Positions 1 through 9,869 of a stretch of DNA of 9,869 nucleotides are shown piece by piece. Both the position numbers and the translations under genes were made by a program. The stretch is taken from positions 1 through 9,869 of the forward strand of contig JAPKDN010000073.1 in assembly GCA_028822575.1 (NCBI GenBank). The letters are read 5' to 3'. The notes beneath the pieces were generated by a model that worked only from the letters and a program-made list of their open reading frames with translations, did no database searches and had not been told where the DNA came from. Positions within the stretch are counted from its first letter, which is position 1. Each line of letters opens with the position of its first letter. Origin of the DNA: Alphaproteobacteria bacterium. GTDB taxonomy: Bacteria > Pseudomonadota > Alphaproteobacteria > Thalassobaculales > Thalassobaculaceae.

Positions 1-886
1 CTCCCTTGTTTGTATAGCATCCAGCGACCTCGATTAGGGCGTCGTGCAGGGCGTCAGAGAGGGTGGAGCGATCGCCGTTCGCGCGCTCAACCAAGGCGAC
101 GCGGCGGCGTACCGGCGGGTCGCCGAAGGGAACGCATTTCAATAGGGCGCGTTGATTGGACGAGATTGATCGCTCCGGCGCAATCGCTACGCCAAGCCCG
201 CAGGATACCATCATCAGAATAGATTCGATCGAATCCAACTCCATCCGTTCCTGAACCTTGATGCCTCGTTCCCGCAAGGCCGAATCGATTACCCGACCGA
301 CGCCAGCCCGGCGGTTGAAGCGCACGAAAGGTAACAAGGTCAGCAGATCTATGTCCCGCCCACCCGGGCTGTCACCCGGCGCCACCACGAGCAATCGCTC
401 CTCCAGAATGGCGCGGGACTTCAGGCCGGCATTCATCCGCGGCGGCTCGGTCAGGATCGCGGCGTCAAGCATGCCGCGTTCGACGCGTCGGATCAGTTCG
501 GTGGACAACTCGTTTTCTATTCGGACCTGCAATCGGGGTGTGCGTTCCCTTAGGATCGCCAGCGCATCCGGCAAAATTCCAGTACTCGCGGTCGGGATAA
601 CCCCTATTCTAAGAATCCCCGCGACGGTTCCAACGGCGCGTGCGCTGTGCCGAAAATCCTCGTATTGGCGGAGTATCTGGCGGGCTTGGGTGACCAATGG
701 GTCGGCGGTCTCGCGCAAACCCGGCGGCCGACGGGATCGGTCGAACAGAGAGGTCTGCAAACCGTCCTCTAATGCCTTCATCTGCATGCTGACGGCGGAC
801 TGGGTGACCCCAAGGCGATCAGCGGCGGCATGAAAACTGCCGGCATCAGCGATCGCGACCAAGGTTTCGAGTTGGCGAAGGGACAT
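1..886 (-). CDS. LysR-family transcriptional regulator, C-terminus cut by window edge
   Basis: The minus strand from the ATG at 886 reads open for 295 codons to the left edge without a stop. LysR proteins are usually about 300 residues, so only the last few are likely missing. The N-terminus (MSLRQLETLVAIADAGSFHA) and the following AADRLGVTQSAVSMQMKALE form the typical winged helix-turn-helix, residues about 1-60. An effector-binding domain follows from about residue 90 (ILRIGVIPTASTGILPDAL, then LLVVAPGD, and GLGVAIAPE near 240). An AGGAGG-like site lies just before the ATG (about 890-895). It diverges from the acyl-CoA dehydrogenase gene at 1007 across 120 bases, the standard arrangement for a LysR regulator controlling the adjacent operon. 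The family is clear; the inducer and the target are inferred from position only. Confidence 0.93.
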   Translation of the reverse strand, partial: MSLRQLETLVAIADAGSFHAAADRLGVTQSAVSMQMKALEDGLQTSLFDRSRRPPGLRETADPLVTQARQILRQYEDFRHSARAVGTVAGILRIGVIPTASTGILPDALAILRERTPRLQVRIENELSTELIRRVERGMLDAAILTEPPRMNAGLKSRAILEERLLVVAPGDSPGGRDIDLLTLLPFVRFNRRAGVGRVIDSALRERGIKVQERMELDSIESILMMVSCGLGVAIAPERSISSNQRALLKCVPFGDPPVRRRVALVERANGDRSTLSDALHDALIEVAGCYTNKG

Positions 887-900
887 GGCCTCCTATAACG

Positions 901-931
901 TAAAATTTAATGAAGTTAATAATCAATTTTA
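901..931. repeat. Inverted repeat TAAAATT-N17-AATTTTA, candidate LysR box
   Basis: TAAAATT at 901-907 and AATTTTA at 925-931 are perfect reverse complements with a 17-base AT-rich spacer. LysR regulators usually bind AT-rich interrupted dyads (T-N11-A type) in such divergent gaps. The repeat is seen directly. Its role as an operator is inferred, and in such AT-rich DNA a 7-base match could be chance. Confidence 0.4.
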
Positions 932-951
932 TTCGGTTGTCTTATATAGGG

Positions 952-972
952 TGCCATTTCAAAATGGTGGCA
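952..972. repeat. Imperfect dyad TGCCA...TGGCA with inner CCATTT/AAATGG arms
   Basis: TGCCA (952-956) pairs with TGGCA (968-972), and the overlapping CCATTT (954-959) pairs with AAATGG (962-967). The element lies between the possible TATATA -10 box and the ATG at 1007, so it would fall in the early transcript or at the start site. It could be an operator half or a 5' leader hairpin. Function is inferred only. Confidence 0.35.
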
Positions 973-1006: not shown

Positions 1007-2248
1007 ATGTCTTTTGACTTAACCGCCGATCAGATAAACCTGCGCGCCCGCGCCCGTGAGCTTGCGTCGACAGTGGTCGCCGCGAACGCCGCCGAGACTG
1101 ATCGGAGTGAGCAATATCCCTGGGCCAACGTCAAGGCGATGACCGGGGCGGGTTTCATGGGTATGACCGTGCCGAAGGAGTTAGGCGGTCCCGGCCATAG
1201 TTTCCTGGAGGCTAATCTGGTGGTCGAGGAAATGGCCGCTTTTTGCGGCCCAACCGGGCGGATCGTGGTCGAGGGGAACATGGGCGCGATCTCGGCGATT
1301 CTGCATTACGGAACCGAGTCGCAGCGCCGCATGGCCGCCGAGATGGTGCTCGCCGGAGACAAACCAGCGATCTGCATCACCGAGCCCGACGCCGGAAGCG
1401 CCGCAAGTCAAATGACCACCCGCGCCGACAAGCGCGGCGACAAATACATCGTCAATGGCAAGAAACACTGGATCACCGGTGGCGGCGTCTCTCGACTGCA
1501 TCTGATCTTCGCCCGGGTCTTCGACGAGGACGGGAACGAGCAGGGCATAGGTGGGTTTTTGGCGATCCGGGACGAGGCCAATGGCTTACGGATCGGCGCC
1601 CGCGAACCAACAATGGGCCTCCGCGGCATCCCAGAAACCGAGTTATTCTTTGAGGATTTGGAGATTTCCGCCGATATGGTTCTTATGCCACCATCTGGCT
1701 TCAAGCGGGGTTTTGCGGATCTGATGAACGCCTATAATTCTCAGCGGGTTGGTGCCGGAACCGTGGCGCTGGGTCTAGCGGTCGGAGGCTATCGCAACGC
1801 GCTTGCCTTCGCCCAAGAGCGCGAACAGTTCGGCCGACCGATCGCCGAGTTCCAGGGCCTGCAATGGATGCTGGCAGACATGTCGGTCCAGATTGAAGCA
1901 TCACGGTCGTTGCTGCACAGAGCTGCGCTTAGCGCCGGTCACAATGGCAGCCCCTTCCCCGACGCCACCCTGGCCGCCCAAGGCAAGATCTTCACCTCGG
2001 AAATGGCGCTAAAGGTCACCACCGACGCTCTGCAGATCTATGGTGCCCGCGGCTACTCCCGCAATTATCCGATGGAGCGGTTGTCCCGCGATGCGCGGAT
2101 GTTCACGATTGGCGGCGGTACGGCCCAAATCTTGCGCACGGTTGTTGCCTCGCGCATCCTGGATCGTAAGCTACCACAAACCCGCGACGGTTTCACCAAT
2201 CTGGCTGAACAGGCAGAGCAGGCCGCGCGTCTTCAAGCCGCCGAATAG
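1007..2248 (+). CDS. Acyl-CoA dehydrogenase-fold flavoprotein lacking the canonical catalytic Glu (desulfinase-like?)
   Basis: A 413-residue protein of normal acyl-CoA dehydrogenase length. The N-terminal helical domain spans roughly 1-120. The flavin-contact motif ICITEPDAGS is at 122-131, GKKHWITGG at 151-159, the beta domain runs to about 220, and the C-terminal helical domain holds REQFGRPIAEFQ (272-283) and QIYGARGYSRNYPMERL (343-359). The usual catalytic glutamate of the medium/short-chain type (YEGT motif) is Gly370 here (IGGGTAQI), and the alternative isovaleryl-CoA dehydrogenase position is Gln246 (NSQRV). Arg85 sits in CGPTGRIVVEG. Gln near 246 plus Arg near 84 is what I recall for 3-sulfinopropanoyl-CoA desulfinase of Advenella; that numbering is from memory. 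It is first in an operon with the ThDP gene nine bases downstream. The ATG at 1007 has an AGGA site. The fold is certain; the desulfinase role is a hypothesis. Confidence 0.9.
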   Translation: MSFDLTADQINLRARARELASTVVAANAAETDRSEQYPWANVKAMTGAGFMGMTVPKELGGPGHSFLEANLVVEEMAAFCGPTGRIVVEGNMGAISAILHYGTESQRRMAAEMVLAGDKPAICITEPDAGSAASQMTTRADKRGDKYIVNGKKHWITGGGVSRLHLIFARVFDEDGNEQGIGGFLAIRDEANGLRIGAREPTMGLRGIPETELFFEDLEISADMVLMPPSGFKRGFADLMNAYNSQRVGAGTVALGLAVGGYRNALAFAQEREQFGRPIAEFQGLQWMLADMSVQIEASRSLLHRAALSAGHNGSPFPDATLAAQGKIFTSEMALKVTTDALQIYGARGYSRNYPMERLSRDARMFTIGGGTAQILRTVVASRILDRKLPQTRDGFTNLAEQAEQAARLQAAE

Positions 2249-2257
2249 GACAAAAAT

Positions 2258-3901
2258 ATGACCGATTCTGGGGCCAGAACCCGAGGCGGTGGCCTCAGAA
2301 CCGCCGATATCGTTGCCCGTCGGCTCCATCAGGCTGGCGTGCGCGCAGCGTTCGGCGTTCCCGGTGGCGAGGTCCTGACCCTGATCGACGGGTTGGAAAA
2401 GGCTGGCATTAGTTTTCTGCTCTCCAAACATGAGAACGCCGCCGGCTTCATGGCTGAGGGTGCGCACCATATGACTGGCGCGCCAGGCGTGCTCGTTGCA
2501 ACAGTCGGCCCAGGCGCTGCGAACGCCGTGAATGTCACCGCCAATGCCCTGCAGGACCGAGTGCCGCTGATCGTAATGACCGGTTGCGTCGACCCAGCTG
2601 ACGCGGTCACCTACAACCATCAGGTCTTCGACCATCGCGCAGTGTTCAGCCCAATCTGCAAGGCCAGCTTCACTGTTCCCGACGGCAATGTCGGGGCGAT
2701 GATCGACAAGGCCATCGCTATCGCCACCGAGGGGCGGCCCGGCCCGGTGCATCTGGACATACCGATCGCCATCGCCAAACAGATCCATAACACTCCGCTT
2801 CCCGCGTCAAGGGTACCGCGCGCGCCAGTGGCGCCAGCTGATGGTCCCGGTCTTGAGACCGCTAGGCGCTGGCTGGCCAAGGCGGAGCGCCCGCTGGTGA
2901 TCGCCGGTGTCGACGCGGTAGTCCAGAACGCCGGAGATGCGATTTCTAACTTCGCACGCGCACATGGCGCCCCAGTAATCGCCAGTTACAAGGCCAAGGG
3001 CTTGATCCCCGATGACGACCCGATGAGCATGGGTGGGGCAGGACTATCGCCGCTGGCGGACATGTCACTTATGCCCTTGATCAAGGATGCCGACTTCATC
3101 CTGCTGGCCGGCTATGACCCGATCGAGATGCGGCCCGGATGGCGCGACCCCTGGGATGTCACCGAAAAACGGGTCGTGGAGTTGTTGATCGAGCCCGAAT
3201 ATTCCTACATGCATCAGGCACCGATCAGCTTTGTCTGCGATATCGTAGAGGGCATACGCTCAATTTCCAACGGCGTGCCAACCCGGCAGACCTGGGCCGA
3301 TAGAGCGCCGGCCAAGGTACGCCGGACCCTCGCCGGCGCCTATGGCCAGAACGAGGCCTGGGGTCCAGCCGCGATCACCACCACGATCCGCAAGGTGGCG
3401 CCACGCGATACTGTGGTTTCGGTGGATTCCGGCGCCCATAGGATTCTGTTCAGCCAGGTTTGGGAGGCCTATGTCCCGCACGCGGTGCTGCAATCGACCG
3501 GGCTCTGCACCATGGGCTGCGCGCTACCCCTGGCGATCGGCGCCAAACTTGCGGCGCCAGACCGGCCGGTGATCGCCTTTACCGGTGATGGCGGACTTGA
3601 GATGGTGCTCGGCGAACTCGTAACTTTGCGCGACCTAAAGTTACCTGTGGTGGTTGTGGTCTTCGTCGACGCATCCTTGGCGTTAATCGAAAAAAAACAG
3701 CGCGAAATGAATTACACCAACACTGGCGTCGATATGATCGAAACCGATTTCGAATCCCTGGCCAAAGTGCTTGGCGGGAACGGCGTCACCGTCGAGGATC
3801 GTGGGGCCCTGGAAGTCGCCATGCGTGATGCGCTCCGGGCCGACACCTATACGGTGATCGCGGCGAAGCTCCCGCGCGGGAGCTATGATGGGCGGATTTG
3901 A
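2258..3901 (+). CDS. ThDP-dependent enzyme, acetolactate synthase-like
   Basis: 547 residues with the three-domain layout of this superfamily: an N-terminal pyrimidine-binding domain (about 12-175, catalytic glutamate Glu59 in LLSKHENAAGFMAEG), a central domain (about 195-335), and a C-terminal pyrophosphate-binding domain (about 365-540). The diphosphate/metal motif starts at GDGG 443-446. Its second metal ligand, usually the second Asn of an NN pair, is Asp471, preceded by Val470 (VFVDASLALIEKKQ). The acetolactate synthase large subunit, sulfoacetaldehyde acetyltransferase, oxalyl-CoA decarboxylase and benzoylformate decarboxylase families share this frame; I cannot choose among them. No regulatory-subunit gene follows, so biosynthetic acetolactate synthase is unlikely. 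It is co-transcribed with the upstream acyl-CoA dehydrogenase homologue (nine bases between them, GGA before the ATG). The protein ends with a family-typical SYDGRI and overlaps the convergent methyltransferase gene by 19 bases. Confidence 0.88.
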   Translation: MTDSGARTRGGGLRTADIVARRLHQAGVRAAFGVPGGEVLTLIDGLEKAGISFLLSKHENAAGFMAEGAHHMTGAPGVLVATVGPGAANAVNVTANALQDRVPLIVMTGCVDPADAVTYNHQVFDHRAVFSPICKASFTVPDGNVGAMIDKAIAIATEGRPGPVHLDIPIAIAKQIHNTPLPASRVPRAPVAPADGPGLETARRWLAKAERPLVIAGVDAVVQNAGDAISNFARAHGAPVIASYKAKGLIPDDDPMSMGGAGLSPLADMSLMPLIKDADFILLAGYDPIEMRPGWRDPWDVTEKRVVELLIEPEYSYMHQAPISFVCDIVEGIRSISNGVPTRQTWADRAPAKVRRTLAGAYGQNEAWGPAAITTTIRKVAPRDTVVSVDSGAHRILFSQVWEAYVPHAVLQSTGLCTMGCALPLAIGAKLAAPDRPVIAFTGDGGLEMVLGELVTLRDLKLPVVVVVFVDASLALIEKKQREMNYTNTGVDMIETDFESLAKVLGGNGVTVEDRGALEVAMRDALRADTYTVIAAKLPRGSYDGRI

Positions 3902-6788: not shown

Positions 6789-7826
6789 CTAGAAAACCAA
6801 ATGCACCTTCATGGAGCTGCCGCGGTCACTCGCGGTCAGGAAGGCCTCGTTCGCGTCTTCCATCGAAAAGCTATGCGAAAGCAAAGGCGCGATGTCGATC
6901 CGCCGCTCCGAAAGGTAACGCACCGCCCAGGCGAACTCCTTGTCGAACCGGAACGACGTCTTCAGCACCAATTCCTTGACCATGATCTGGTCGGTTGGGA
7001 TCGGCACCATCGGGTCGGCGAACGTTCCTATTTGAACAAAGGTGCCGCCTGGTCGCAGATGCTTGATCGCGGAAAGAACGGCGCTCGAGTGGCCCGACGC
7101 GTCGAAAGCGACATCGAAAGAACCACGCGGATGGCGCGGGTCGGCCAAAACCTCGTCTCCAGCGCCGACGTTCAGCGCGCGGTCGGCGCCTATGTCCATG
7201 GCGACTTTTAGAGGGGCGTCCAAGATATCCGTCATGGTGACCGACGCGGCGCCGGCAAGCTTCGCCGTCAGCGATACCAGCGAGCCAATGGGACCCGAAC
7301 CAGAAATCAAGACATTGGCGCCCAGCAATGGCCCAGCCTGCCCAGTGGCATGCAAGGCGACAGACAGCGGCTCGGCGAAGGCGGCAGCGTTGATCGAAAG
7401 ATCATCCGGCACGACGAAACATTGCACCTCATCGGTCCCATAGGTTTCGGCGAACATCCCCTGGACATGTGGAGACCGCCGCGAGCTGCCAAGGAAGACC
7501 ATGTCGGAACACAGCAGAGCGCGGCCCACCAGACAGAACTCGCACGACCCGCAGGGATGGCTCGGGTTTACGGTCACCTTGTCGCCGACCTTGACCCGAG
7601 TGACCTCGGGACCGATTTCGGCAACGTCGCCGGCCGCCTCGTGACCCAACACGAAGGGTTCGCGCACCGGGAAATCCCCCATCCTGTAATGATGGAAATA
7701 GTGCAGGTCGGAGCCACAGATGCCACCGGCGCGGATGCGCACGCGCACACCGGTAGGGCCAAGGCCCGGCTCGTCCTGGTTGACGGTCTCGATGGATTGC
7801 TTGGCGGTGAGAACGGCGGCGCGCAT
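6789..7826 (-). CDS. Zinc-dependent alcohol dehydrogenase, L-idonate 5-dehydrogenase/sorbitol dehydrogenase type
   Basis: 345 residues from ATG 7826, an NAD(P)-dependent medium-chain dehydrogenase. Catalytic zinc residues appear at Cys37 (GICGSDLH), His62-Glu63 (LGHEAAG) and Glu152 (AEPLSVALH). The structural zinc cysteines are Cys92, Cys95, Cys98 and Cys106. The Rossmann motif is SGSGPIGS (175-182). The length and the GICGSDLHYF and AEPLSVALHA stretches fit L-idonate 5-dehydrogenase-like proteins, but the substrate is not defined by sequence. The ATG at 7826 has GGAGA six bases upstream and follows the thioesterase stop by 13 bases; an upstream extension to 7931 would read through that gene and is not family-like. 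It is the last gene of the minus-strand operon and oxidises or reduces a hydroxy intermediate in an unknown pathway. Confidence 0.92.
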   Translation of the reverse strand: MRAAVLTAKQSIETVNQDEPGLGPTGVRVRIRAGGICGSDLHYFHHYRMGDFPVREPFVLGHEAAGDVAEIGPEVTRVKVGDKVTVNPSHPCGSCEFCLVGRALLCSDMVFLGSSRRSPHVQGMFAETYGTDEVQCFVVPDDLSINAAAFAEPLSVALHATGQAGPLLGANVLISGSGPIGSLVSLTAKLAGAASVTMTDILDAPLKVAMDIGADRALNVGAGDEVLADPRHPRGSFDVAFDASGHSSAVLSAIKHLRPGGTFVQIGTFADPMVPIPTDQIMVKELVLKTSFRFDKEFAWAVRYLSERRIDIAPLLSHSFSMEDANEAFLTASDRGSSMKVHLVF

Positions 7827-7839
7827 GGGATGTCTCCGA

Positions 7840-8649
7840 TCAGCTCTTGTCGAGCAGAGCCTGAGCCCTCTCGCGAATTTCGTTGCTAATCCGGGCCGGG
7901 CGCCGGGCGTCGAGGTCGAGCTGGACACCAAACTGGCTCAAACCCGCGATATCGGCGCCGGTCTCGGCGTTGCGCATTCGATGGTAGAGCCGCAGCGATG
8001 AGCTGCCGAGTTGGGCGATGCAACTATCCACGTCGATCATGTCGCCAGGTTTGGCCTCGCCATGGAAGGTTAGCTGAAATTCGAAGGTCGAGAGTCCAAA
8101 CCGGTTCTCAGTCATGTATTCCGGCGTCATCCCAAATGCCGCCATGATGAAGCCGTTGGCGGTCGAGAAACGGTGGATATAGCCAGGGAGTGACAGCTTG
8201 CCAGCCCAGTCAGCCTCAGTTGGCCGCACCATGTCTTTCAACGCCGGAACCCAGACCGCGTCATCGCCGGGGACTGGGCGGTCCTCCAGGGCATCACCGT
8301 CCCAATCAACCACCGGCCCCGGCAGTGAGACGCCGGTGAGGCTCTGTTGCATGGCGGTGCATAGCACGCCCGTCTGATCGTTGAAAACCCGGTGCGCGAT
8401 CACCGGTGCGTCGCCGGCCTTGATGAGCGCTGTTTCGATCCGATAATTGGCGCGGTTACGCAACTCCGCCTTGTAGTGGGTCACTGCGTCGGTTGTGCGT
8501 GCGGCGAAGGGATCAACACCGGCCAGGCGCAGGAAACGACAGGTCGCCGCCTCGAATTTCTCATAGTAATAGGCGACCGTAAAATGCTCGGTCGAATCGA
8601 CTTCCCAGGTATGGACGTCGCCTCGGAAAGTCTCTGTATAGCCGGTCAT
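7840..8649 (-). CDS. Double-hotdog acyl-CoA thioesterase-like protein
   Basis: 269 residues containing two hotdog-fold halves. The first (about 8-105) has EVDSTEHFTVAYYYEKFEAA (16-35), where Asp18 aligns with the catalytic Asp of 4-hydroxybenzoyl-CoA thioesterase and HFTVAYYYEKF matches its helix. The second half (about 150-250) has RFGLSTFEFQLTFHGEAKPGD (strand-helix-strand) but no matching Asp, so only one half may be catalytic. The product would release a free acid from a CoA ester in the cytoplasm. It is co-transcribed with the lyase gene upstream (7 bases between them) and the zinc dehydrogenase downstream (13 bases). I recall similar two-domain thioesterases in carnitine catabolism (betainyl-CoA thioesterase), but none of the other carnitine genes is here. 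The start at 8649 has GGAG ten bases upstream. Confidence 0.8.
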   Translation of the reverse strand: MTGYTETFRGDVHTWEVDSTEHFTVAYYYEKFEAATCRFLRLAGVDPFAARTTDAVTHYKAELRNRANYRIETALIKAGDAPVIAHRVFNDQTGVLCTAMQQSLTGVSLPGPVVDWDGDALEDRPVPGDDAVWVPALKDMVRPTEADWAGKLSLPGYIHRFSTANGFIMAAFGMTPEYMTENRFGLSTFEFQLTFHGEAKPGDMIDVDSCIAQLGSSSLRLYHRMRNAETGADIAGLSQFGVQLDLDARRPARISNEIRERAQALLDKS

Positions 8650-8656
8650 TATATGC

Positions 8657-9523
8657 TTACTCCGCCGCTTTTCGCTCGTTGGACGCGTCGAAATCCCAAA
8701 CTTCCTGGAAGCCCATGTCCTTAGAAAAGGTCATGAAGTCGCGCAGCGATACGTCCAAGTCCAGGCTGGCTCCAGTCTTCTTGAGCGTGCCGTAGATCGA
8801 ATGCAGCGCGTGGGCGGTGGCCATGAAGCCGGTGCCGGGATAGATCGCGATTTGATAGCCAAGATCGATATAGGCTTGCTTGGAAAGCACCGGCGTGCTG
8901 CCACCATCGACGACGTTGATCAGCAACGGCAGATCGAAGCTGGCACAGATCTTGGTCATTTCCTCCTCCGATTCCGGGGATTCTATGAACAACACATCGG
9001 CGCCGGCCTCGGCGAAGGCCTCACCGCGCCTTAGCGCCTCATCAAGACCAAGGCCGGTGCGCGCATCTGTGCGAGTGACGATCAGGAAATCCGAGGAATC
9101 CCGCGTTTCCACCGCGACCCGAATCTTTTGTACCATATCCTCGAGCGGGATCACCTTACGGCCCGGCGTATGGCCGCATTTTTTCGGAAATTCCTGGTCC
9201 TCGATCTGGATACCGGCCGCGCCAGCTCGTTCGTAGCCACGGACTGTGTGCTGGACATTGAGCAGTCCGCCATAGCCGGTATCACCGTCCGCGATGAACG
9301 GCGTAGTGACCACGTCGGCCATCACTTTTACCCGGCCAACCATGTCGGTATAGCTGGCGATACCCGCGTCTGGCATCCCAAGATGTGAAGCGACGGTGCC
9401 ATATCCGGTCATATACAGCATCTCGAAGCCGAACGGGTCGGCCATGCGGGCCGAGATGCCATCGAAAATTCCAGGAGCGGTAATTAGCTCTCCAGGGCGA
9501 AATAGGTCCTTCACACTAGCCAT
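8657..9523 (-). CDS. Isocitrate lyase/PEP mutase superfamily lyase (methylisocitrate or dimethylmalate lyase-like)
   Basis: 288 residues from ATG 9523, a TIM-barrel enzyme of the isocitrate lyase/phosphoenolpyruvate mutase superfamily. DADTGYGG-type metal motif appears as DGDTGYGG (79-86), with IEDQ (107-110), KKCGH (114-118) and RTDAR (151-155). The cysteine of KKCGH is the catalytic acid of the lyases (isocitrate, 2-methylisocitrate, 2,3-dimethylmalate lyases); PEP mutases and phosphonopyruvate hydrolases lack it, so C-C cleavage of a substituted malate or citrate is likely. The ATG has AAGGAG eight bases upstream (9532-9537). The frame is also open upstream into the amidohydrolase remnant, giving a possible fusion. 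The following thioesterase and dehydrogenase genes suggest one pathway. The substrate is unknown. Confidence 0.9.
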   Translation of the reverse strand: MASVKDLFRPGELITAPGIFDGISARMADPFGFEMLYMTGYGTVASHLGMPDAGIASYTDMVGRVKVMADVVTTPFIADGDTGYGGLLNVQHTVRGYERAGAAGIQIEDQEFPKKCGHTPGRKVIPLEDMVQKIRVAVETRDSSDFLIVTRTDARTGLGLDEALRRGEAFAEAGADVLFIESPESEEEMTKICASFDLPLLINVVDGGSTPVLSKQAYIDLGYQIAIYPGTGFMATAHALHSIYGTLKKTGASLDLDVSLRDFMTFSKDMGFQEVWDFDASNERKAAE

Positions 9524-9531
9524 TGGGCTAT

Positions 9532-9537
9532 CTCCTT
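9532..9537 (-). promoter_or_regulatory. Strong Shine-Dalgarno AAGGAG that sets the lyase start at 9523
   Basis: AAGGAG reads on the minus strand eight bases before the ATG at 9523. It lies in a frame that is open from the amidohydrolase fragment, and shows that the lyase is meant to be translated on its own even though no stop codon separates it from the upstream reading. Confidence 0.75.
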
Positions 9538-9836
9538 GATAATAAATTCCGTCGCGGATCTCGAAGATCATCAGCGACAATTCCTCGGCCGAGCGTCCGG
9601 CCCAATCCAAATCTGGAATGCTATTCATCGACCGAGCCTGTGCCTCTTGCAAGGCCCCCAGCGCGCTTTCCATATCCATGGTCATCACCTTGCCATCGGT
9701 GACTACATGCTCGCCATCGACAAAGACGTCACGGATTGCCCGGTCGCCGGCGACAAAGAACAGCGAGCGCAGGAGCTCGCGTACCGGCATCATCAAGGGC
9801 GCCTTCAAATCAACCAGCACGAGCTCCACCTTAGCG

Positions 9837-9869
9837 CCCCACCGCCAGGCGGCCAATGTTGTCGCGTTC
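9837..9869 (-). other. Upstream half of the frameshift: short in-frame piece before the indel
   Basis: This piece reads ERDNIGRLAVG in the frame opposite to the downstream one. It is the family-typical sequence that precedes the GAK motif, so it most likely belongs to the same amidohydrolase. The frame ends at a TAA one codon further (9831-9833). Confidence 0.6.

Follow-up and report, generated by a model that had tools for sequence, protein, structure and literature searches.

The window analysed here, a stretch of 9,869 nucleotides from a bacterium of the Thalassobaculaceae (Alphaproteobacteria), contains a gene (1007..2248, plus strand) whose product is very probably, judging from profile, structure and tree comparisons, a member of the AcdDPN7 family of 3-sulfinopropanoyl-CoA (3SP-CoA) desulfinases. 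The desulfinase family itself is already known, and the window protein adds one more member to it. The less known part is the ThDP-dependent enzyme encoded directly downstream (2258..3901, plus strand) rather than the desulfinase, and the link between the two genes is statistically strong.

The open reading frame at 1007-2248 is translated without interruption into 413 amino acids and matches three of the three Pfam fold domains of acyl-CoA dehydrogenases, which bears out the statement of the preliminary description that the fold is otherwise intact. NF042439, the NCBIfam equivalog model of 3-sulfinopropanoyl-CoA desulfinase, was matched with 659.8 bits over the entire profile (positions 1-379 of 379), above its cut-off of 600. 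The cut-offs of the other 22 among the 23 NCBIfam models listed were not reached, and the second model, acryloyl-CoA reductase, gave 288.5 bits against a cut-off of 640. The best solved relative was 5af7 (520.7 bits; runner-up, 244.4 bits), the sequence of which is identical to that of 5ahs; these structures and NF042439 represent AcdDPN7 of Advenella mimigardefordensis. The window protein shares 61.9% identity with 5af7 (245/396 aligned positions), as against 37.5% and 36.9% with the dehydrogenases 3pfd and 5ol2. The fold of the protein is therefore clear, since the profile matches are full-length and the crystal structure is 62% identical.

To compare the active sites, the window protein was aligned with 5af7, the two dehydrogenases and the best 80 genome relatives kept, which are near by choice. 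Arg84 and Gln246 of AcdDPN7 are taken here as family-defining, and both presumably have roles in its active site. At column 370, the window protein (codon GGC, 2114..2116, plus strand), 5af7 (Gly366) and 80/80 relatives share a Gly, where 3pfd and 5ol2 have the Glu of ordinary dehydrogenases. Column 246, which we take to be the base position of isovaleryl-CoA dehydrogenase, is Gln in the window protein (codon CAG, 1742..1744, plus strand), in 5af7 (Gln246) and in all 80 relatives, and Thr or Gly in 3pfd and 5ol2, respectively. An Arg occupies column 85 in the window protein (codon CGG, 1259..1261, plus strand), in 5af7 (Arg84) and again in all 80 relatives; the dehydrogenases have Leu (3pfd) or Val (5ol2) there. 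The proposals that Gln246 and Gly370 replace the catalytic glutamate and that Arg85 is a special residue thus hold for the whole family sample, and the Advenella residues named in the preliminary description fall exactly in these columns. Catalytic acyl-CoA dehydrogenases have a Glu at the C-terminal or the helix-G position, where the window protein has Gly370 and Gln246; of the residues that mark a desulfinase, Arg85 and Gln246 are present and the YEG glutamate is absent. The alignment revealed no Glu at the other base position, and within window columns 80-89, 242-249 and 365-375, the sole Glu is Glu89 (Glu in 80/80 relatives, Asp in 5af7). The pattern is not a product of chance, because 46 positions conserved in 81 or more of the 82 family rows differ from both dehydrogenases. 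According to passages of PMC8360864, in which 5AHS is entered as sulfinopropionyl-CoA desulfinase, the YEG motif of dehydrogenases is changed to AGG in the desulfinase branch; the window protein has GGG.

The phylogenetic tree was built from 59 rows: besides the window protein, 5af7 and the pair of dehydrogenases, it comprised 41 of the 80 loci, six copies from plasmids (L138-L143) and eight from the genome draws described below. The 57 family rows, including the window protein and 5af7, were split from the two dehydrogenases with support of 100/100, these two long-branched sequences being the entire outgroup, and 17 of the 56 inner branches were weak. 5af7 clustered with sequences of Cupriavidus, Diaphorobacter and Paraburkholderia (100/100), and the window protein fell among alphaproteobacterial sequences of the Rhodospirillaceae, Thalassobaculaceae and SAR116 type (supports of the nested sets, 99/93, 99/97 and 100/99), in a subclade different from that of 5af7. 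The tree check suggested earlier thus put the window protein with the desulfinases and away from both dehydrogenases included, and the desulfinase function that had been raised as a possibility is supported jointly by the NF042439 match, the best match to 5af7 and this grouping.

AcdDPN7 reportedly converts 3SP-CoA to propionyl-CoA and sulfite. We infer that the window protein catalyses the same reaction, with FAD bound, and the ThDP enzyme might have a part in supplying its substrate; the residue roles that follow are likewise inferred. The enzyme keeps the acyl-CoA dehydrogenase fold but, with Gly370 and Gln246, would have no base for the alpha proton; by analogy with AcdDPN7, Arg85 and Gln246 would bind the sulfinate and polarise it, and cleavage of the C-S bond would give propionyl-CoA and sulfite with no net oxidation. 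Clustering with genes for a CoA-transferase III and a thiol dioxygenase is usual for a desulfinase but not defining. As in the AcdDPN7 system, a LysR gene lies near the desulfinase gene of the window; in contrast to that system, NCBIfam and Pfam matches of the nine annotated proteins in the window revealed neither a CoA-transferase III (CaiB) nor a thiol dioxygenase (Mdo), and a ThDP gene adjoins the desulfinase gene. The activation genes may sit elsewhere, as SucCD does in Advenella. The Advenella cluster consists of LysR, transferase, desulfinase and Mdo genes (PMC5373536, in part), and the Diaphorobacter cluster of genes for a CaiB transferase, a desulfinase and a cysteine-dioxygenase-type protein. 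No gene of the Mdo type was detected at up to 8 kb from the desulfinase in the 80 loci (flanks shorter in some) or in the 48 loci of a second set. The source of the sulfinate is therefore not evident from the 80 loci.

The stop of the desulfinase gene (ending at 2248) and the start of the ThDP gene (2258) are separated by nine bases, and an AGGA spans the stop codon; the operon partner named in the preliminary description is therefore present. Between 800 and 4800, five terminator-like sites were detected, every one on the minus strand. The two genes thus form an apparent operon, as far as gene layout can tell. Divergent from it is a LysR-type regulator gene (2..886, minus strand; Pfam HTH_1 and LysR_substrate), truncated by the window edge, and a divergent LysR gene has the same position in L001, L008-L015, L036, L066, L067 and L079. 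The intergenic region contains a candidate LysR operator, ATTCGGTTGTCTT (931..943, plus strand), identified by motif match. Within the 220 bases preceding the desulfinase, the motif ATNCRNTTGYYTK occurs in 12/80 loci, namely in 12 of the 13 that have the divergent LysR gene, and has one match in the window and 22 in 1.34 Mb of relatives (both strands); it was derived from those very sequences, so the count describes and does not test. One of the twelve loci, L079, is without a ThDP gene. An inverted-repeat scan also detected the palindrome CCATTTCAAAATGG (954..967) upstream of the desulfinase start, in place of which several relatives have TCAC-N6-GTGA at a similar distance. The latter element precedes the desulfinase start by 26-76 bases in 10/20 ThDP-adjacent loci (L001, L008-L011, L013-L015, L036 and L067) versus 0/60 others, with 16 occurrences in 1.34 Mb. 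In ten more places probed, it was present solely before the ThDP gene of Bosea (L146), and it was absent from the window, also with one mismatch allowed. At the other end of the window, an open frame (8657-9868, minus strand) fuses an amidohydrolase-like tail to a PEP-mutase/methylisocitrate-lyase-like protein; the corresponding region of L002 and L007 contains separate ORFs (288 and 285 aa).

The preliminary description regarded the pairing with a ThDP enzyme as non-standard for beta-oxidation, and this pairing was found to recur. The ThDP gene is directly downstream on the same strand in 20/80 desulfinase loci, with a distance of 1.2 to 1.3 kb between the two gene starts (in L001 the match is split in two pieces); in L002, a very close relative, it was not found by the same neighbour search of the 80 loci. 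On the tree, the pairing label required at least 11 changes versus 12 to 22 in 200 shuffles (mean 17.8), with 23 rows scored as having the pair, divergent L124 among them, 33 as lacking it, and C. necator omitted. Pairing is thus scattered over lineages but not random. Co-occurrence was studied in 385 alphaproteobacterial genomes drawn evenly and searched with the queries P0002 (ThDP) and P0001 (desulfinase), each at E <=1e-130, the best few candidates per genome being scored. The desulfinase was present in 51 genomes and is thus a common family; a ThDP homologue was present in 22, and 15 had both (15/22 vs 51/385). After removal of the centre genome, which had been picked for having both, the table was 14, 7, 36 and 327 (Fisher P = 4e-9, genome kinship ignored). 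In 9 of the 15 genomes the two genes are at most 3 kb apart, and in the remainder (G076, G159, G298, G337, G376 and G389) they are distant or on different contigs. The association persisted among the larger genomes, guessed at 150 to 200 by a size cut estimated from few listed sizes (P from 4e-4 to 9e-6). Among 369 gammaproteobacterial genomes, the desulfinase was detected in 4 (one partial, and one the centre, selected for having it), and the ThDP gene (query from L138, E <=1e-110) in 2, both of them desulfinase holders with the genes on different contigs (2/2 vs 4/369; P = 4e-5 without the centre). In 396 Actinomycetota genomes, a search run without a positive control detected no ThDP gene of the C. 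necator type, although homologues from named Streptomyces and Saccharopolyspora do exist. On a plasmid of Parasedimentitalea marina (L144, ~6900-7980), an unannotated desulfinase appears as three tblastn pieces upstream of an intact ThDP gene, reflecting a decayed copy or sequencing faults.

The ThDP partner, a protein of 547 aa with the Pfam TPP_enzyme N, M and C domains, is proposed to be a 2-oxo acid decarboxylase on account of adjacency and co-occurrence. It reached no cut-off, those of acetolactate synthases included, among the 25 of 54 NCBIfam models listed, the best being NF006187 (344.5 bits, cut-off 509), and NF006378 giving 274.1 bits (cut-off 510). The catabolic acetolactate synthases 1ozf and 4rjj are among its nearest solved relatives (202-205 bits). 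It differs from them in having Lys where AlsS has Gln487 and Glu where Lys follows PGA. Within the ThDP family, Glu38, Arg292, His394, Arg395 and Lys480 are present in 38/38 rows; the corresponding residues of the two acetolactate synthases are Lys, Glu/Asp, Phe/His, His/Ala and Gln. Four paralogues with 30-35% identity also have His394 and Lys480, without Arg292 or Arg395. At the columns of AlsS Gln424 and Gln487, which are said to position the second pyruvate (PMC9469723, in part), the window protein has Cys417 and Lys480. As stated in the same passages, Ser at either position did not lower pyruvate condensation (PMC9469723), so acetolactate synthesis may well proceed without these two Gln residues. 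The residues of the ThDP enzyme are thus compatible with an acidic substrate and with acetolactate synthesis alike.

A further gene setting was observed in Cupriavidus necator N-1, which reportedly (Schuermann and colleagues, 2014) grows on 3SP and has an Acd assayed as a desulfinase. On its plasmid pBB1 (L138; an unannotated record for which genes were called in this analysis), the order is LysR, CaiB transferase, desulfinase and TctC, with a transporter and two LysR genes on the opposite strand, followed by a class I aminotransferase 4 kb beyond the desulfinase, the ThDP gene, an aldehyde dehydrogenase and an M20-type hydrolase. The L138 desulfinase scored 672.2 bits with NF042439 (cut-off 600); the CaiB transferase is nearest the succinate-glutarate type (496.9 bits, below the cut-off of 750), and the aldehyde dehydrogenase is nearest the succinate-semialdehyde type (606.4 bits, below the cut-off of 646.35). 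Its ThDP enzyme is 52.5% identical to that of the window but lies 5.3 kb from the desulfinase and is flanked by the aminotransferase and aldehyde dehydrogenase genes.

This arrangement suggests an extension of the desulfinase assignment, and not an alternative to it, namely that the desulfinase and its ThDP partner belong to one pathway, which we offer tentatively. Homocysteine sulfinate would be converted to 2-oxo-4-sulfinobutanoate by an aminotransferase or a 2-hydroxyacid dehydrogenase; the ThDP enzyme would yield 3-sulfinopropanal, an aldehyde dehydrogenase 3-sulfinopropanoate, and a CaiB transferase 3SP-CoA, from which the desulfinase would release propionyl-CoA and sulfite in the last step. 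Such a pathway would be the sulfinate copy of the sequence from glutamate over 2-oxoglutarate, succinate semialdehyde and succinate to succinyl-CoA. A role of the ThDP enzyme as the decarboxylase of 2-oxo-4-sulfinobutanoate, leading towards 3SP, is conceivable but doubtful. It is with similar reserve that we consider that marine Alphaproteobacteria, among others, may break down sulfur amino acids by a route not described before, which would start from homocysteine sulfinate or the corresponding 2-oxo or 2-hydroxy acid and be under one LysR regulator. The pathway is favoured by the L138 gene set, by the co-occurrence in both proteobacterial draws, and by Glu38, Arg292, Arg395 and Lys480 of the ThDP family. 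Sulfinopyruvate, which loses sulfite spontaneously, was set aside as a ThDP substrate for that reason. A D-2-hydroxyacid dehydrogenase gene, another possible source of the 2-oxo acid, adjoins the pair in 7/80 loci (SAR116-type, Nisaea), which also argues for a common pathway. Sulfinate analogues are handled by enzymes of this kind: homocysteine sulfinate is accepted by E. coli glutamate decarboxylase, and the decarboxylation product is converted to 3-sulfinopropionate by GABase, which pairs a transaminase with succinic semialdehyde dehydrogenase (PMC11396700, in part). Among the matches listed from open-licence papers, no mention of 2-oxo-4-sulfinobutyrate, 4-sulfino-2-oxobutanoate or 3-sulfinopropanal was found. 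In L003, L004, L006, L007, L014, L015 and L136, the desulfinase-ThDP pair is accompanied by two mutually divergent genes, one for a gamma-glutamyltranspeptidase and one for a D-2-hydroxyacid dehydrogenase.

Several observations weigh against one common pathway. Of the 48 ThDP or desulfinase loci scanned, L138 was the one locus in which aminotransferase and aldehyde dehydrogenase genes of its type (at least 60 bits) were found, and the 16/80 desulfinase loci with an aldehyde dehydrogenase gene nearby are all without a ThDP gene. Lys480 and His394 are common to the four paralogues, and no Actinomycetota genome (0/396, in the search without a positive control) yielded the L138-type ThDP gene. In the text portions available from PMC6370202, the only literature on a ThDP link to a desulfinase found among the matches listed from open-licence papers, the cluster of Variovorax paradoxus TBEA6 is described as containing acdA, act and mdo together with the acetolactate-synthase-like ilvX and a semialdehyde dehydrogenase gene. 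IlvX, which is likened here to the window ThDP protein by description and not by sequence, is encoded about eleven locus tags from the desulfinase, as compared with nine bases in the window. Both TBEA6 proteins were more abundant on 3SP and thiodipropionate than on gluconate, the IlvX spots, some of them mixed with other proteins, being 3.9-fold up on thiodipropionate and 6.8-fold on 3SP; the authors considered that IlvX abundance may reflect vicinity (PMC6370202, in part). Deletion of ilvX left growth on thiodipropionate unaltered (same passages), which speaks against a shared pathway, though thiodipropionate would enter below the ThDP step.

The same deletion result is in line with a second possibility, which we likewise regard as somewhat unlikely, that these bacteria simply degrade 3-mercaptopropionate or 3SP in the manner of Advenella, with the ThDP enzyme serving side products or the carbon beyond propionyl-CoA. 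In agreement with it, Diaphorobacter, Paraburkholderia and Advenella have desulfinase genes without an adjoining ThDP gene. It fits less well with the same-strand adjacency in 20/80 loci, scattered over the tree with 11 changes as against 12-22 after shuffling, and with the detection of an Mdo-type gene near none of the 80 desulfinases.

The ThDP family has another setting too. Of the 22 alphaproteobacterial ThDP places, 20 were read with wider flanks (L118-L137), and their neighbours included OpgC in 8, a tetratricopeptide protein that we name TTC38-like in 6, and a CaiB CoA-transferase (at least 400 bits) in 10. OpgC functions in periplasmic glucan modification. Its presence beside the same ThDP family in 8/20 wider loci counts against the one-pathway proposal and a purely sulfur-specific reading of the ThDP enzyme, which may use a 2-oxo dicarboxylate there. 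A desulfinase occurs elsewhere in 2 of the 8 OpgC-type genomes (G159 and G337) and in 13 of the remaining 14 ThDP genomes, centre included; the exception, G099, was seen as a 4 kb locus without an OpgC search. The ThDP gene accompanies OpgC, mostly with CaiB transferase and TTC38-like genes, in L118, L120, L122, L130-L133, L135, L145 and L146, and genes of the OpgG and OpgH types come next in L118 and its relatives. These loci perhaps serve to place an unusual acyl group on periplasmic glucans.

A third reading, which appears improbable, is that a beta-substituted acyl-CoA other than 3SP-CoA is cleaved in these lineages. In its favour, the window subclade is apart from that of 5af7, and the neighbours across the 80 loci are varied (TTC38-like 32, P450 30, glutamine-synthetase-like 16); given such neighbours and the common occurrence of the family, not every member need act on 3SP-CoA. 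On the other hand, the three active-site columns match 5af7 in the window protein and in 80/80 relatives, and the window protein passes the cut-off of a curated equivalog. An acyl-CoA dehydrogenase using an unrecognised base, for which the matched fold domains could speak, is extremely improbable, as neither base column has a Glu and the clade is separate from the two dehydrogenases.

Some of these neighbourhoods deserve a record of their own. The TTC38-like protein, in which Pfam detects TPR repeats only, is encoded no more than 8 kb from the desulfinase in those 32 loci, which span several phyla (for example, L024:8607-9986, L079:13146-14480 and L181:10351-11739), and in 0/20 ThDP-paired loci. 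In Acidimicrobiia (for example, L021, L037, L043, L074 and L080) and Mesorhizobium (L141), the desulfinase occurs with P450, glutamine-synthetase-like, aldehyde dehydrogenase and FAA-hydrolase genes, and L141 also carries a gamma-glutamyl-GABA-hydrolase-type gene; a gamma-glutamyl amine route ending in a sulfinate is possible for these loci.

The characterised members of the desulfinase family come from a few bacteria with the ability to break down technical thioethers and disulfides. Its common occurrence in Alphaproteobacteria and its presence in other phyla, with the catalytic columns intact, imply that a natural source of sulfinate, or another substrate, must exist. The link to the ThDP enzyme offers a concrete way to ask where that sulfinate originates, and the organic sulfur cycle may thereby gain a step.
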